From positions 7,121 through 40,188 of the forward strand of contig JAHDFQ010000022.1 in the NCBI GenBank assembly GCA_020628085.1: a stretch of 33,068 nucleotides of DNA. The letters are read 5' to 3'. The DNA is from Saprospiraceae bacterium (GTDB lineage Bacteria; Bacteroidota; Bacteroidia; Chitinophagales; Saprospiraceae). Both the position numbers and the translations under genes were made by a program. The notes under the pieces are model-generated. The model was given only the letters and a program-made list of their open reading frames with translations, was not told the origin of the DNA and ran no database searches. This document shows positions 97-33,068 of the stretch, piece after piece (within the stretch, counting starts at the first letter, position 1; every line of letters begins with the position of its first letter).

Positions 97-2340
97 TTGA
101 GAGCTTTAACAATAATTCTTGGTATTCTATTTTTCCTTAGTCCGACACTAAGAGCGGCTCACATCATTGGTGGTGAAATTACTTATGAGTGTTTGGGTAA
201 TGACAGTTACCAGTTTACCATGCGGATTTACCGAGATTGTGATAGTGGCGGTGCTTTATTTGATGCGCCAGGTAACAGTGTCGGTGCAGCTACAATTACG
301 ATCTTTAGAGGTTCAGGCGAATTTGATCGGCTATCATTAGGGGCACCTCAGATAAGAGAGATTCCTCCAGATTTTGAAAATCCTTGTCTGATCCTTCCAC
401 CGAATGTTTGTGTAGAAGAAGGGGTATACGTATTCAATGCGATTTTACCACAATCAGCAGATAATTACACCATTTCCTATCAGCGTTGTTGTCGAAATGA
501 ATCTATCACCAATTTAATTGATCCAGGTGCATCGGGTGCAACCTATACGGTAGAAGTTACTGCCGAATCTCAGGCGCAGTGCAACAATAGTCCTGTTTTT
601 AATAACTTTCCACCTATTATAATATGCTCTAATCAACCACTTAATTTTGATCATTCTGCTTCAGATGCAGATGGCGATCAGTTGGTTTACGAACTATGCA
701 CGCCTTTCCTAGGAGGAGGAAGAGACGGTTCTGGAGGACCAGGTTCAGGTGATCCGAATAGTCCAACAGGTGTAGCACCAAATCCAGATTTGCCACCACC
801 ATACGATCCTGTTGTTTTTGTACAACCGACCTATTCAGCAATTGCTCCACTGGCAGGCGATCCTATTGTAACCATTGATCCCGTAACTGGAATTATTACT
901 GGAACACCAACTATTATTGGGCAGTTTGTAGTGGGTGTGTGTGTTAGAGAGTTTAGAAATGGTGTATTGTTAAGTACTGTTCAACGAGATTTTCAGTTTA
1001 ATGTAGCTAGCTGTGAACCCTTCGTATCCGCGGATATTCGAGAAGATGAAATAATTAATGGAAATGAATATGTTGTTAATTCTTGTGGAAACAATACGGT
1101 TGAATTTATTAACCAAAGTACGCAGGAAGAATTTATTGACGTGGTGAATTGGTCGTTCGACATTAATGGATCAGTGCAAACAGTAGATACTTGGGATGCA
1201 ACGATTACGTTTCCAAGTGAGGGAACGTACGAAGGACAGTTAATTCTAAATCCAGGAACAACGTGTGGTGACACCGCCAATATTTTTGTGAATGTTTACC
1301 CTGATATCACTGCTGATTTTACATATGATTATGATACTTGTGTTGCTGGCGCAGTTAATTTTTTTGATCAGTCTTTCACAGGGGCAGGAGAAATAATAGA
1401 TTGGTCTTGGGATTTTGACGATGGGGGAACATCCATTGAAACCAATCCTGAATTTTTATATGATGCACCTGGAACGAAGCAAGTAGCTTTAACAGTTAGA
1501 GATACAAATGATTGTGAGGAAACAGTAATTGAACCGATCTATTGGGTGCCTGCCCCTGCTGAAATTATTGTCGCACCTAACATATTCGTCGGATGCAATC
1601 CTCAAACCGTTTTTTTTGATAATTTATCCTCACCTATTGATGAAACTTACGATATCTTATGGGACTTCGGAGATGGTACTACAGGAACAGAAATCAGTCC
1701 AGAACATGTATATGAAGAACCAGGAATTTATAGCGTTACCGTAGATATTGTCTCGCCCATTGGTTGTGCGATTGGAGCTGCCTTTCCGAATTGGATAACC
1801 GTTCGTGAAGCACCAGAAGCAGGCTTTGATTATACACCAGATAATCCTACTAATCTTCAACCTGATGTTAGTTTTATAGATGAGTCTAAACGAGCTAAAT
1901 TTTGGGATTGGTCATTTGATGTAGAAGGTTTCTCTACAGAACAAAATCCCGTTTATATGTTTCCTGATACTGGATTTCAGGAGGTTATACAAATTGTTAC
2001 TCATGAAAATGGTTGTCAAGATTCTGCTTTAATTTTGATTGATGTAGAACCTATTGTAACTTATTTTTTACCCAATGCTTTTACTCCCAATAGCGATTCG
2101 GTCAACGATATTTTTATTGGAAATGGAGTATATGAAGGTATGACGGAATTTGAAATGACCATTTGGAATCGTTGGGGGGAAAAAGTTTTTGAAACGGATG
2201 ATCCAAACGAAGGCTGGAATGGACAAAAAAATAATGTAGGTCAAATGTCGCCAAATGGCGTTTATGTAGTTTTAGTAAGATATTTAACACCCCGAAAAGT
2301 CCCCGTCAACCTTAAAGGTTTTGCTACGTTAATAAATTAA
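97..2340 (+). CDS. PKD-repeat surface protein with T9SS type B (gliding-motility C-terminal) sorting domain
   Basis: Predicted secreted cell-surface protein of 747 residues. The start is TTG: the frame has a stop at 82-84 and no ATG before the mature domain, and only the TTG start gives a signal peptide (hydrophobic stretch about residues 4-18, mature part beginning near AHIIGGE). An Ig/cadherin-like N-terminal half contains ADGDQLVYE and GIITGTP motifs. PKD-like modules follow, around residues 436 (WSWDFDDGG), 520 (ILWDFGDGT) and 601. Residues about 655-747 (FLPNAFTPN, WNRWGEKVFE, GWNG, PNGVYVV) match the gliding-motility-associated C-terminal domain, which in Bacteroidota directs export by the type IX secretion system. 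Paired cysteines recur through the protein. The next gene is a full-length paralogue in the same order. Adhesion or matrix function is an inference; no enzyme domain is seen. Confidence 0.9.
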   Translation: MRALTIILGILFFLSPTLRAAHIIGGEITYECLGNDSYQFTMRIYRDCDSGGALFDAPGNSVGAATITIFRGSGEFDRLSLGAPQIREIPPDFENPCLILPPNVCVEEGVYVFNAILPQSADNYTISYQRCCRNESITNLIDPGASGATYTVEVTAESQAQCNNSPVFNNFPPIIICSNQPLNFDHSASDADGDQLVYELCTPFLGGGRDGSGGPGSGDPNSPTGVAPNPDLPPPYDPVVFVQPTYSAIAPLAGDPIVTIDPVTGIITGTPTIIGQFVVGVCVREFRNGVLLSTVQRDFQFNVASCEPFVSADIREDEIINGNEYVVNSCGNNTVEFINQSTQEEFIDVVNWSFDINGSVQTVDTWDATITFPSEGTYEGQLILNPGTTCGDTANIFVNVYPDITADFTYDYDTCVAGAVNFFDQSFTGAGEIIDWSWDFDDGGTSIETNPEFLYDAPGTKQVALTVRDTNDCEETVIEPIYWVPAPAEIIVAPNIFVGCNPQTVFFDNLSSPIDETYDILWDFGDGTTGTEISPEHVYEEPGIYSVTVDIVSPIGCAIGAAFPNWITVREAPEAGFDYTPDNPTNLQPDVSFIDESKRAKFWDWSFDVEGFSTEQNPVYMFPDTGFQEVIQIVTHENGCQDSALILIDVEPIVTYFLPNAFTPNSDSVNDIFIGNGVYEGMTEFEMTIWNRWGEKVFETDDPNEGWNGQKNNVGQMSPNGVYVVLVRYLTPRKVPVNLKGFATLIN

Positions 2341-2477
2341 AGTATTTTCGTTTTTTAGATATTTGTTTATTGAACAAAGAGTACTCAGAAACGAATATTT
2401 TAAACAATCAGCTTTTGAGGTAGATTCCATAAAGTTTTTACGCTCATATAAATTATAATTGAACGAAAACTTCTTGC

Positions 2478-4760
2478 ATGTTACATATTGTACAATACCA
2501 AAACGCTCAACCCTTTTTATGTAAAAAATGGTTGAGCGTTTTTATTTTTCTGTGTTATTGCTTAGTAGGAAATGCCACACATATTGTGGGCGGTGAAATT
2601 GGTTACGAATGTTTAGGGAATGATGATTATCGCTTTACCATGAAAATGTATCGAAACTGTAATGGTGCGGCTCAGGGGGCGTTTCCAGATCCTGCCAATA
2701 TTGCTATTTATACCGTAGATGATGGTGGGAATTATGTGTTGTTTGATAATAGAAATGTTTTTTTAGAAGAAAATAATCCTCCAGAAATTCCACTTCCAGA
2801 AATACCTTGCTTAGAACCACCAGAAAATGTATGTGTTGAAGAAGGTTCGTATATTTTTAATAGTAATTTACCTCTATCGAACGGAAGTTATTATGTCATT
2901 TTTCAGCGATGTTGTCGAAATGGTTCGATCAATAACATTCTTGCTCCTGGAGATACTGGAATCACACTAGCTATCGAATTGACCTCTGCTGCACAAGTCG
3001 GATGTAACAATAGCCCTATCTTTAATGACTTTCCGCCTACTGTTATTTGTGCAAACGAACCGCTAAATTTCGATCATTCTGCCACAGATGCTGATGGTGA
3101 TCAACTTGTCTATGAATTTTGTGCCCCGATAAAGGGAGGAGGTCGAGCGGGAACTCAAGGTTTCCCTGGTGATGCTGCTGGTTGTGATGGTTGGCGACCT
3201 AATCCTGCTTGTCCACCACCATTTGAATCTGTAGACTTTGTCGTGCCAACATATACTGCTCTTGAACCGATGGGAGGTGCGCCTGTCGTGGGCATTAATA
3301 CGCTTACAGGCGTCATTTCTGGTGTTCCAAATATCATTGGACAGTTTGTCGTTGGTGTATGTGTGAAAGAGTTTCGAGATGGAGTTTTGTTGAGTACAAC
3401 ACAACGAGATTTTCAATTTAATGTGGAACAGTGCGATCCGTTAATAGAACCGATTATCGAGGCAGATATTATATTACCAGATAATACTTTCGTGGTGAAT
3501 TCTTGTGGCGATGAAAGCGTTGATTTAGTGAATCAAAGCAATATCGAAGATGATATAGATAGCTTTTTTTGGAGCTTTGATCTCAATGGCACAGAACAGA
3601 CATTCGATCAATGGAGTTTTAATTTAATGCTACCTGATACGGGAACTTATGAAGGTTTTTTATATTTAAATCCTGGCTCGCAGTGTGGCGATACCGCACG
3701 TGTTTTAGTCAATTATTTTCCAGATGCTAATGCTGATTTTAATGTAGAATATGATACCTGTGTGGCTGGTGATGTTTTTTTTACGGATCAATCTATGCAG
3801 TTTAACGATACAATTAGCGAACGGGCATGGACTTTTGGAAATGGAACAACTTCTACTGAAATAAATCCTTCTGTAGATTACGAAACGCTTGGAACATATC
3901 AGGTTCAGCTACGCATTGTAGATGAAAATGGTTGTACCGATATTATTTCCAAAACGGTTGATTGGTTTCCTGCACCAGAGTTAATTGTGATTGAACCGAG
4001 TTCATATGTTGGATGTCCACCTGCGGATATTTTCTTCAATAATTTAACAGAACCTATTGACGATACCTATCAAGTAGAATGGCTTTTTGGCGATGGCGAT
4101 ACGAGTTCTGTCGTTAGTCCTACCCATTTATATGATACAACAGGTTCATATTCCATTAACGTTGAGATTACTAACCCGTTTGGTTGTGTGACCAAAAGAA
4201 CGTTTCCTAATTTGATTAACGTTACGCCCGTCCCAGTTGCTAATTTTGGTTTTGAACCAGAGGTGCTAGACAACTTTAATCCTACCACAACCATGATTGA
4301 TTCTTCTCTATTTAATAATTCATGGTTTTGGGACTTTGATACAGAATCTGAAGCCTATATAGAACAACCAAGTTACTCTTTTAGAGATACGGGTTTACAG
4401 GTAGTTACTTTAATTGTAAGTCATCCAAATGGTTGTTCAGATACCACTTTTAGAATAATTGATGTGGTGCCAAAAGCTACTTATTTTTTACCTAATGCCT
4501 TTACACCAAATGGCGATGGAACGAATGATGTATATATCGGAAAAGGTTATTTAGATGGTATTTCTAACTTTAATTTTGAAGTTTGGAATCGCTGGGGAGA
4601 ACAAATTTTTCAAACCGATGATCCAAGCGAGGGTTGGAATGGAACAAAAAATAATACAGGTCAATTATCACCAAATGGAACGTATCAATGTTTCGTCTCT
4701 TTTATCGAGCCAAGAGGAGCATTGCAAGAATATCAGTCGTTTATAACATTAATGCGGTAA
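2478..4760 (+). CDS. PKD-repeat surface protein with T9SS type B sorting domain, tandem paralogue
   Basis: Secreted protein of 760 residues that matches the preceding gene along its length (THIVGGEIGYECLGND, QRCCRNGSI, GQFVVGVCVKEF, WNRWGEQIFQTDDP). Signal peptide: KKW then a hydrophobic run SVFIFLCYCLVGNA, with the mature chain starting at THIVGG. PKD-like modules lie near residues 450, 534 and 616, and the type B C-terminal sorting domain spans about 669-760. The ATG at 2478 is used because the closest later in-frame start (TTG at 2532) would remove the basic n-region of the signal peptide. Oddly, a 13-bp perfect stem followed by a T-rich stretch lies inside these first codons (2500-2542). 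The tandem arrangement suggests gene duplication; the role is probably adhesion or gliding surface structure. Confidence 0.9.
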   Translation: MLHIVQYQNAQPFLCKKWLSVFIFLCYCLVGNATHIVGGEIGYECLGNDDYRFTMKMYRNCNGAAQGAFPDPANIAIYTVDDGGNYVLFDNRNVFLEENNPPEIPLPEIPCLEPPENVCVEEGSYIFNSNLPLSNGSYYVIFQRCCRNGSINNILAPGDTGITLAIELTSAAQVGCNNSPIFNDFPPTVICANEPLNFDHSATDADGDQLVYEFCAPIKGGGRAGTQGFPGDAAGCDGWRPNPACPPPFESVDFVVPTYTALEPMGGAPVVGINTLTGVISGVPNIIGQFVVGVCVKEFRDGVLLSTTQRDFQFNVEQCDPLIEPIIEADIILPDNTFVVNSCGDESVDLVNQSNIEDDIDSFFWSFDLNGTEQTFDQWSFNLMLPDTGTYEGFLYLNPGSQCGDTARVLVNYFPDANADFNVEYDTCVAGDVFFTDQSMQFNDTISERAWTFGNGTTSTEINPSVDYETLGTYQVQLRIVDENGCTDIISKTVDWFPAPELIVIEPSSYVGCPPADIFFNNLTEPIDDTYQVEWLFGDGDTSSVVSPTHLYDTTGSYSINVEITNPFGCVTKRTFPNLINVTPVPVANFGFEPEVLDNFNPTTTMIDSSLFNNSWFWDFDTESEAYIEQPSYSFRDTGLQVVTLIVSHPNGCSDTTFRIIDVVPKATYFLPNAFTPNGDGTNDVYIGKGYLDGISNFNFEVWNRWGEQIFQTDDPSEGWNGTKNNTGQLSPNGTYQCFVSFIEPRGALQEYQSFITLMR
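2500..2549 (+). terminator. Terminator-like hairpin inside the signal-peptide codons of the 2478 gene
   Basis: The left arm aaaacgctcaacc (2500-2512) and right arm ggttgagcgtttt (2530-2542) are perfect reverse complements. The intervening bases contain a second pairable stem, ttttta/taaaaa (2514-2519 with 2522-2527). A T-rich run (tttatttttc) follows the right arm. In form this is an intrinsic terminator or attenuator, yet it lies 22 nt inside the coding sequence. Its activity is not established. Confidence 0.6.
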
Positions 4761-26139: not shown

Positions 26140-26757
26140 TTACACCAAACCTATTTTAGATGCTAAGTCTCGATTGCAAAGCGAGCCATTTCGTAGTCCA
26201 GCATAATCAGATGCGGAAGAGTATAACCAGTCTTCAGGTTTTTTAACCAAATTTGCTTTAACAGGATTTTGATGAATATAATTCATACAAACTCTTGCAT
26301 ATTGAATACCATCTGAAAATTTGAAAAAGGTAGATTCTTGATCTATATGAATGAAAGCATCCATATCCCAATCGTTGTTCACCTTCGTACCAATTTGAAA
26401 TAATGAGCCTGTTCGATTTTCCTGATTATTGATAGCTCTAGTATAACTTCTTAGCAAAATAGCTATTCCTTGACTCATATTTTGTTGTCTATTATGCTTT
26501 TGCTTTTTTTGAAAAGAAGAAGGTATTGTTTTAGTTGGTTTAATCATTTTACTCAATGTACATCCTTCAGGTTTCATGTAGACCAACCAATGAAAGTGAT
26601 TTGGCATCAAACAATAGGCAAGAAATGAGCAGTATGGTAGAAGCTCTTTGCGCATTTTTTGTAAGAAAAAGATATAATTTCTTTCTTGCGGAAAGATAAC
26701 TTGGCTATTGTTGCCCTTGTTATAAATATGGTAAATTTCGTTAGCTTCAAAAGTCAT
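26140..26757 (-). CDS. REP-associated tyrosine transposase (RAYT, Y1_Tnp family)
   Basis: HUH-type single-strand DNA nuclease of 205 residues, related to IS200/IS605 TnpA. It shows MPNHFHWLVYM with His54 and His56 (the HUH pair), catalytic Tyr105 in LLRSYTRAIN, and the C-terminal MNYIHQNPVKANLV and DWLYSSASDYAG blocks that mark the RAYT group. All expected residues are present, so it appears intact. It is alone, without TnpB. It is flanked by inverted palindromes, the usual setting of a RAYT and its cognate REPs, and another copy of the palindrome occurs at 31731. RAYTs are thought to mobilise REPs in trans. Confidence 0.94.
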   Translation of the reverse strand: MTFEANEIYHIYNKGNNSQVIFPQERNYIFFLQKMRKELLPYCSFLAYCLMPNHFHWLVYMKPEGCTLSKMIKPTKTIPSSFQKKQKHNRQQNMSQGIAILLRSYTRAINNQENRTGSLFQIGTKVNNDWDMDAFIHIDQESTFFKFSDGIQYARVCMNYIHQNPVKANLVKKPEDWLYSSASDYAGLRNGSLCNRDLASKIGLV

Positions 26758-31910: not shown

Positions 31911-32891
31911 ATGATGAAAATAGGTGTTTTAGGAGTTGGACATTTAGGAAAAATACATTTGAAGTGCATTCAGATGATTGATGATTATGAATTGGTCGGT
32001 TTTTATGACCCGAATGAGGATAACGCAACTGCGGCAATAAATTCTTATAGTGTCAAAAGGTTTACCGATATTGATGAATTAATAGACGCTGTGGATGTGG
32101 TTGATATTATTACACCCACGATTACACACTTTGAACTCGCCAAGCTCGCTATTCAAAAAGGAAAACACGTTTTCATAGAAAAACCATTGACGAATACCAT
32201 TGAAGAAGGACAAATTTTATTGGAATTGAGTCAGCAACATGGTGTAAAAGTACAAGTAGGACACGTCGAGCGATTCAACCCTGCTTTTTTGTCTTTGGGC
32301 GATACACCTTTGAATCCCAAGTTTATTGAAGCCCACCGACTCGCCATGTTCAATCCTCGTGGAACGGATGTATCTGTTGTACTAGACCTAATGATTCACG
32401 ACTTGGATATATTATTGAGTATGGTACCATCGAAAGTAAAAAAAATAAATGCGAGTGGCGTAGCGGTGGTGAGTGATACACCCGATATTAGTAATGCTCG
32501 GATTGAATTTGAAAATGGCTGTGTGGCCAATTTGACTGCTAGTCGTATTTCGATGAAACAGATGCGTAAAGTCCGCTTGTTTCAGAAAGATGCTTATATC
32601 AGTATTGATTTTCTGGAAAAGAAATCCGAGGTTATTCGTTTGTATGACAAAACAGCATCTAACCTTCAATCATTAGATAGCTTCGTAGAACTACCTACTC
32701 CAAAGGGCGACAAACTCATACAAATCAAAACCCCCAAAGCAGAACCCAGCAATGCCATCAAAATGGAATTGGAACTGTTTGCAAAAAGTATTCGTGAAAA
32801 TACCCGTCCCATTGTGAGTATTAAAGACGGCTTTAATGCTTTAAAATTAGCGCATCAAATTATTGAGGAGATTGAGAAAAGTGTGGTGTAA
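31911..32891 (+). CDS. Gfo/Idh/MocA family oxidoreductase
   Basis: NAD(P)-dependent oxidoreductase of 326 residues. The Rossmann glycine motif GVLGVGHLGKIH (residues 5-16) opens the dinucleotide domain, and EKPLTNT carries the family EKP motif. The C-terminal sheet domain includes VGHVERFNPAF and DLMIHDLDI, patterns seen in sugar and UDP-sugar dehydrogenases of the family. The substrate is not readable from sequence. Two tandem ATGs (31911 and 31914) are present; the second gives the usual MKIGVLG start. It is transcribed alone from its own promoter. Confidence 0.9.
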   Translation: MMKIGVLGVGHLGKIHLKCIQMIDDYELVGFYDPNEDNATAAINSYSVKRFTDIDELIDAVDVVDIITPTITHFELAKLAIQKGKHVFIEKPLTNTIEEGQILLELSQQHGVKVQVGHVERFNPAFLSLGDTPLNPKFIEAHRLAMFNPRGTDVSVVLDLMIHDLDILLSMVPSKVKKINASGVAVVSDTPDISNARIEFENGCVANLTASRISMKQMRKVRLFQKDAYISIDFLEKKSEVIRLYDKTASNLQSLDSFVELPTPKGDKLIQIKTPKAEPSNAIKMELELFAKSIRENTRPIVSIKDGFNALKLAHQIIEEIEKSVV

Positions 32892-32928: not shown

Positions 32929-32959
32929 TTGCACTTATATCAAATATCTTTTATATTTG
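32929..32959 (+). promoter_or_regulatory. Promoter of the repeat-containing reading frame at the window end
   Basis: TTG (32929-32931) is followed after 20 bp by tatatttg (32952-32959), a full match to TTG-N19-21-TAnnTTTG. The -7 box overlaps a perfect inverted repeat, tcaaatat/atatttga (32940-32947 and 32953-32960), which could be an operator. A leader of about 30 nt with agaagg leads to the ATG at 32995. Confidence 0.6.
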
Positions 32960-32994
32960 AATCAGGGAACAAAACTAGAAGGCTAAAAATTGAA

Positions 32995-33068
32995 ATGAAA
33001 GGTCTTAACCAAAAAAATCTTTTCTTTTCTTTTCTTTTCTTTTCTTTTCTTTTCTTTTCTTTTCTTTT
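32995..33068 (+). CDS. 5' end of an exported protein with a repeat-encoded signal peptide (partial)
   Basis: Only 24 codons lie in the window. The frame begins MKGLNQKN, a basic n-region, and from codon 9 reads LFFSF three times, then L, which is the hydrophobic core of a signal peptide. These codons are made wholly by the CTTTT repeat. Every frame of a CTTTT tract is free of stops, so a change in copy number would shift the downstream frame without truncation inside the tract. Promoter and agaagg lie just upstream. The identity of the mature protein lies beyond the window. Confidence 0.6.
   Translation, partial: MKGLNQKNLFFSFLFFSFLFFSFL
33019..33068 (+). repeat. Pentanucleotide microsatellite (CTTTT)10
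   Basis: Ten uninterrupted CTTTT units fill the last 50 bases and reach the final base of the window, so the true number is at least ten. They begin exactly at the ninth codon of the reading frame at 32995. Such tracts are prone to slipped-strand changes. Confidence 0.95.

Follow-up and report, generated by a model that had tools for sequence, protein, structure and literature searches.

The stretch of DNA analysed here, which we refer to as the window (33,068 nt), corresponds to positions 7121-40188 of contig C253 of a Saprospiraceae genome assembled as 284 contigs (5.0 Mb), and its far end is occupied by a perfect pentanucleotide repeat. The features at this end of the window are as follows.

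31911-32891, + strand: gene for a GFO/IDH/MocA oxidoreductase (Pfam PF01408, E 2.3e-29), used as the upstream synteny anchor
32929-32959, + strand: promoter-like boxes TTG-N20-TATATTTG (direct reading), with TTG at 32929-32931 and, after the N20 spacer, TATATTTG at 32952-32959
32972-33018, + strand: upstream half of a leader element, AAACTAG..GGCTAAAAA..GTCTTAACC..AAAAT
32995-33018, + strand: ATG (32995-32997) and seven more codons, ATG AAA GGT CTT AAC CAA AAA AAT (MKGLNQKN; direct reading)
33019-33068, + strand: (CTTTT)10 tract (TRF), carrying on at the start of contig C6 as (CTTTT)10 and then CGTCTAAAA

The ten CTTTT units are 100% identical, and the last base of the tract is also the last base of the contig (C253:40188), so the unit number in the window is that kept by the assembler. 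Chance does not account for the tract: a three-unit CTTTT pattern, with up to one mismatch allowed, has eight overlapping matches in the window, all of them inside the tract, as compared with a mean of 0.03 and a maximum of 1 in 100 shuffles. We take the TTG-N20-TATATTTG boxes to match the promoter consensus of the Bacteroidota type. The first-pass annotation had described these boxes, the ATG at 32995, the eight codons that it opens and ten perfect repeat units, and all of this is borne out by re-reading and by TRF; it had also named an assembly artefact at the contig end as an outcome that would speak against its reading. The tract is not merely such an artefact: the same genome has an internal tract of six units on contig C141, and two more tracts at the start and the end of C6.

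Two other regions of the window deserve mention. At the far end from the tract (97-4760) lie two tandem paralogous genes for large proteins of 747 and 760 aa (49% identity), and a 205-aa open reading frame at 26140-26757 on the minus strand resembles a REP-associated or IS200-like transposase, an assignment that we presume from its MPNHFHWLVY motif.

The probable C253-C6 join and the downstream module

Contig C6 (33,365 bp) starts with AAAAT(CTTTT)10CGTCTAAAA, and its first 55 nt are identical to the last 55 nt of C253, as would be expected for contigs cut at a common k-mer. The overlap alone cannot choose between this join and a self-closure of C6, because the end of C6 also matches its start exactly over 51 nt, with a tract at both ends (L030:1-55 and L031:7321-7366) in the same orientation; this second overlap could have arisen through recombination of leaders with one another, from a circular form of the sequence or simply in the assembly. 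The deciding part is gene order. Relatives of the window oxidoreductase were found in 11 of 12 genomes searched (the source genome included) and relatives of a sugar transferase encoded on C6 in all 12, and the oxidoreductase, a gene labelled p290 and the sugar transferase have one order and orientation in ten of the ten relatives for which the neighbourhood was fetched. The spacing varies, with about 1.7 kb separating the oxidoreductase from p290 in genome G018 and about 6.4 kb of other genes separating p290 from the transferase in G002. In the source genome p290 and the transferase are both on C6 and the oxidoreductase is on C253. The 55-nt overlap and the conserved gene order together favour the join, and C6 very likely follows C253.

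With the contigs joined, about 4 kb of additional sequence separates the oxidoreductase from p290 in the source genome, a module consisting of the tract leader and four genes.

C6:229-1926: predicted lipoprotein of 565 aa, starting 173 nt past the tract, with its own start and signal sequence, MKNLWLLFFKISLVAFVLYGC
L030:1939-2812 (C6), behind the lipoprotein gene: two small related proteins (134 and 137 aa, 38% identical)
C6, also in the module: protein of 433 aa that carries a CHU_C type IX sorting domain

The lipobox motif in MKNLWLLFFKISLVAFVLYGC is our presumed mark of a lipoprotein. Neither of the two small proteins has a Pfam match, and none of the four module proteins has a match in the fetched neighbourhoods of the ten relatives. 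In the gap between p290 and the transferase of G002 (contig C86, L147) we observe a DUF1800 gene and a Por_Secre_tail protein in which MopE-type metal-binding motifs occur ten times, and the p290-transferase region may be an insertion hot spot.

A dispersed leader element and the readings of the tract

The tract belongs to a leader element that is dispersed in the source genome, with three upstream halves (at the window end, at the C6 end and on C141) and two downstream halves (at the C6 start and on C141). Similarity between the copies is continuous from about AAACTAG, just 3′ of the promoter-like box. With the tract set aside, the window copy is identical to the C6-end copy at 39 of 45 aligned bases (with five gap columns) and to the C141 copy at 40 of 45 (with gaps), and the C6-end and C141 copies are identical at 47 of 48. 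All three have a TAnnTTTR box, which begins 67 nt ahead of the tract in the window and 71 nt ahead of it in the other two; the boxes of the sister copies are TATATTTA on C141 and TATGTTTA at the C6 end, where a second box, TATTTTTG, lies 28 nt upstream of TATGTTTA. The copies have six, at least nine and at least ten units. No continuation of the C6-end copy was found among tracts of four or more units elsewhere in the assembly, and the kinase gene beside this half has its best match outside the source genome at 35% identity (in G002).

Both downstream halves share GGTGATGnCGTTTACCGTnCATC, which is matched exactly only in the source genome; with up to three mismatches it has 13 matches in 12 of 147 other genomes, all with exactly three mismatches, as against 11 for the backward control, and relatives yielded no copy of the downstream half. 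The six-unit tract on C141 is followed by a 93-aa open reading frame with a weak match to a type IX (T9SS) sorting tail (24.3 bits, below the Pfam cut-off of 27); it is apparently a gene remnant and fits decay as well as function. A search with the flank across the order gave matches in two of 396 genomes, these being the source genome and G017, in which contig C8 has a tract of 11 units with a similar 3′ flank, CAGCCTAAAA, adjoining a run of N and situated between genes with T9SS sorting tails. When genome contigs were scanned with a short flank pattern, 38 stretches were found, of which one, again the G017 tract, has more than the pattern's own two units.

What the tract does depends first on whether it is translated. 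The first-pass annotation had placed it within the signal-peptide codons of an exported gene switched by frame shifts, as in the opa genes of Neisseria, and this design is suggested by the ATG, basic n-region and hydrophobic repeat at 32995-33068 and by the presence of the pentamer in such codons in six further family genomes and in one from the wider order. All phases are open from the ATG to just past the tract; however, the three frames stay open for only 9, 1 and 3 codons past the tract on C6, and therefore the tract is probably not in the signal-peptide codons of a longer gene. With C6 following, no long exported frame of the kind expected beyond the tract is present: the frame from the ATG comes to 25-37 aa whichever unit number between 8 and 13 is taken, a result that at the window locus depends on the C253-C6 join. 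An Opa-type gene would have one of three phases open beyond its tract and would keep its start codon in sister copies. Neither is found here, and the window copy alone of the three has an ATG; moreover, the lipoprotein gene downstream has a start and signal sequence of its own. We also weighed a non-canonical start (frame WAKKKKRKVLT..) for the sister copies on C141 and at the C6 end; on C141 all frames close within 16 codons past the tract. We thus regard an Opa-like gene at the window locus as very unlikely. A short upstream frame, in which the ATG would initiate a hydrophobic peptide whose frame and length are set by the unit number and which is coupled to downstream translation, would make use of the phases open through the tract; because the C141 and C6-end leaders lack the ATG, the element as a whole does not conserve such a frame, and of the readings considered we give it the least credence.

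A structured RNA, whether a regulatory or a mobile element, with the CUUUU tract paired to a purine-rich arm and the size of a loop set by the unit number, has some appeal in that the minimum free energy (MFE) fold of the C141 leader does pair the purine arm with the tract, and a hairpin, GATGK..MCATC, can be drawn by eye in both downstream halves, with its last pair changed on both sides. The C141 MFE fold is nonetheless formed without this hairpin, there are just two sequences in which to look for covariation, and, at the six tract loci compared with the Rfam 15 covariance models, there were no matches with an E value of 1 or less. The part of C6 downstream of the tract folds mildly better than shuffles (z −1.59, 11 of 200 as good), and the 5′-truncated C141 leader has a z of +0.88. 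The model is weak because the fold energy of the whole leader is ordinary, the full C141 leader being matched in fold energy by 72 of 200 shuffles (z −0.35), and we consider it very unlikely. This ordinary fold would suit a neutral microsatellite, a pyrimidine-rich stretch of a duplicated leader that has grown by slippage and has no regulatory role, as would the restriction of the downstream half to the source genome and the apparent remnant behind the C141 copy. It does not sit easily with the retention of the leader just 3′ of promoter-like boxes in three copies, or with the G017 tract that has a similar 3′ flank and lies between sorting-tail genes; neutrality is a possibility that we take seriously and still hold to be unlikely.

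We favour, with a probability of roughly 0.55, the reading that the CTTTT repeat is prone to slippage and occupies the 5′ leader, with a putative promoter on one side and on the other a presumptive operon in which the predicted 565-aa surface lipoprotein comes first, and that it tunes the expression of that operon. The tract would lie between the promoter-like boxes and the predicted surface-gene operon on C6, as part of a small dispersed leader element; replication slippage would probably alter the unit number, and the altered length or fold of the leader would tune expression of the downstream surface genes. Since every frame through the tract closes soon after it, a change in unit number would not switch a gene on and off by shifting its frame. 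This leader reading is supported by the contig overlap and gene order, the closed frames, the sister copies without an ATG, the TAnnTTTR boxes and the placement of the lipoprotein gene 173 nt downstream, and further by the different unit numbers of the copies and the precedent of Moraxella uspA2. It is weakened by the potential of C6 to self-close by overlap alone, by the ordinary fold of the leader, by the confinement of exact GGTGATGnCGTTTACCGTnCATC matches to the source genome and by the position of the C141 copy before an apparent remnant.

Signal-peptide-like tracts in relatives and known repeat systems

The design proposed by the first-pass annotation can be looked for across the family. 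In 398 family genomes we looked for an ATGA with four CTTTT units coming 2-26 nt after it and found matches in seven, the source genome included, as compared with two genomes for the backward control. In a class-wide sample the same pattern matched two of 395 genomes (the source genome and the family member G092) and none of the 389 that belong to other families. Three of 60 genomes, again including the source genome, contain tracts of at least five units, and four such tracts are in relatives: two are of the signal-peptide type (G017 contig C136, and G044), one is the leader-like tract on G017 C8, and the fourth is on G017 C62. This last tract has seven units and lies near a contig end (L035).

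There are seven signal-peptide-like loci, six within the family (G521, G017, G002, G280, G092 and G528) and one, G044, in the order and outside the family. At every one of the seven, exactly one of the three phases leads into a long open reading frame with a hydrophobic leader. The downstream frames are 143-499 aa long, those of G092 and G528 reaching the end of the fetched stretch, and at each locus none of 2000 order-1 resamples gave a frame as long. Four of the seven (G521, G017, G002 and G280) have a lipobox-like cysteine, and on our assumption that this motif marks a lipoprotein we call them predicted lipoproteins. The encoded proteins comprise predicted lipoproteins with no Pfam family, one protein with a carboxypeptidase-regulatory domain, and others.

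By their assembled unit numbers, four of these loci are in phase (G017 with seven units, G092 with four, G528 with four and G044 with five) and three are out of phase, each one unit short (G521 with five, G002 with four and G280 with six). The out-of-phase loci have intact downstream frames of 190 aa (L165, G002), 381 aa (L162, G521) and 143 aa (L166, G280), and are candidates for the off states of phase-variable genes. They could alternatively be assembly errors or recent pseudogenes; intact frames behind out-of-phase tracts are what reversible switching predicts. As judged from sequence, the Opa-like design is present in Bacteroidota, and to this extent the original proposal holds in relatives, with one open phase at seven of seven loci, and probably does not hold at the window locus, where the frames close once C6 follows. 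The interpretation first given to the tract is thus probably wrong for the window and right in kind for the relatives.

The closest tested precedent for the window tract would appear, by analogy, to be the AGAT tract of uspA2 in Moraxella catarrhalis, which lies 132 bp upstream of the open reading frame and whose unit number affects the mRNA level (PMC7302503); another paper gives uspA1 and uspA2 as the two experimentally studied tandem repeats between promoter and start codon (PMC4679880). As in uspA2, a short tandem repeat with a unit that is not a multiple of three would lie outside the coding frame, between a promoter-like box and the start of a predicted surface-protein gene, and more than 100 bp upstream of it (173 nt here versus 132 bp, with positions here read from the sequence and promoter and export predicted). 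The two differ in the unit (a CTTTT pentamer rather than AGAT), in phylum, and in the presence here of three upstream halves in one genome. In the opa genes of Neisseria the repeat is (CTCTT)n in leader-peptide codons (PMC3960869). The seven loci in relatives are like opa in having a pyrimidine pentamer in signal-peptide-like codons with one open phase of three, whereas the frames through the window tract close soon after it; what the relatives encode is not Opa. Heptamer TAACTGA repeats upstream of start codons are described in PMC4679880 for Beggiatoaceae, cyanobacteria and five Bacteroidetes. The window tract resembles these in being an intergenic tandem repeat upstream of genes, with Bacteroidetes included; the TAACTGA repeats differ in their unit, in their many sets and, in the best-studied genome, in lying mostly within several nucleotides of the start codon.

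A limited search of open-licence PMC papers found no report of CTTTT or pentanucleotide phase variation in Saprospiraceae or other Bacteroidota. The Saprospiraceae are a mostly environmental family, and switching in Bacteroidota has mostly been discussed as DNA inversion. A correlation between long simple repeats in prokaryotes and their dependence on eukaryotic hosts has been reported (PMC4060949, citing Mrazek et al. 2007). If surface genes of Saprospiraceae do have pentamer tracts of the Opa-like and uspA2-like kinds, switching by slippage would gain a place in Bacteroidota, and phage or predator pressure, rather than host immunity, would be suggested as the driver. The three out-of-phase relatives with intact frames make the switching idea testable in existing sequence reads. 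We put forward tentatively that Saprospiraceae use CTTTT in two ways. In the signal-peptide codons of lipoproteins and proteins of the outer-membrane type it would act as a frame switch, and ahead of surface-gene operons it would form a tract of variable length within a leader cassette dispersed in the genome. If this is true, the two architectures would together give Bacteroidota a small system of phase variation based on a pentanucleotide, one that has converged on the designs of Neisseria opa and Moraxella uspA2.
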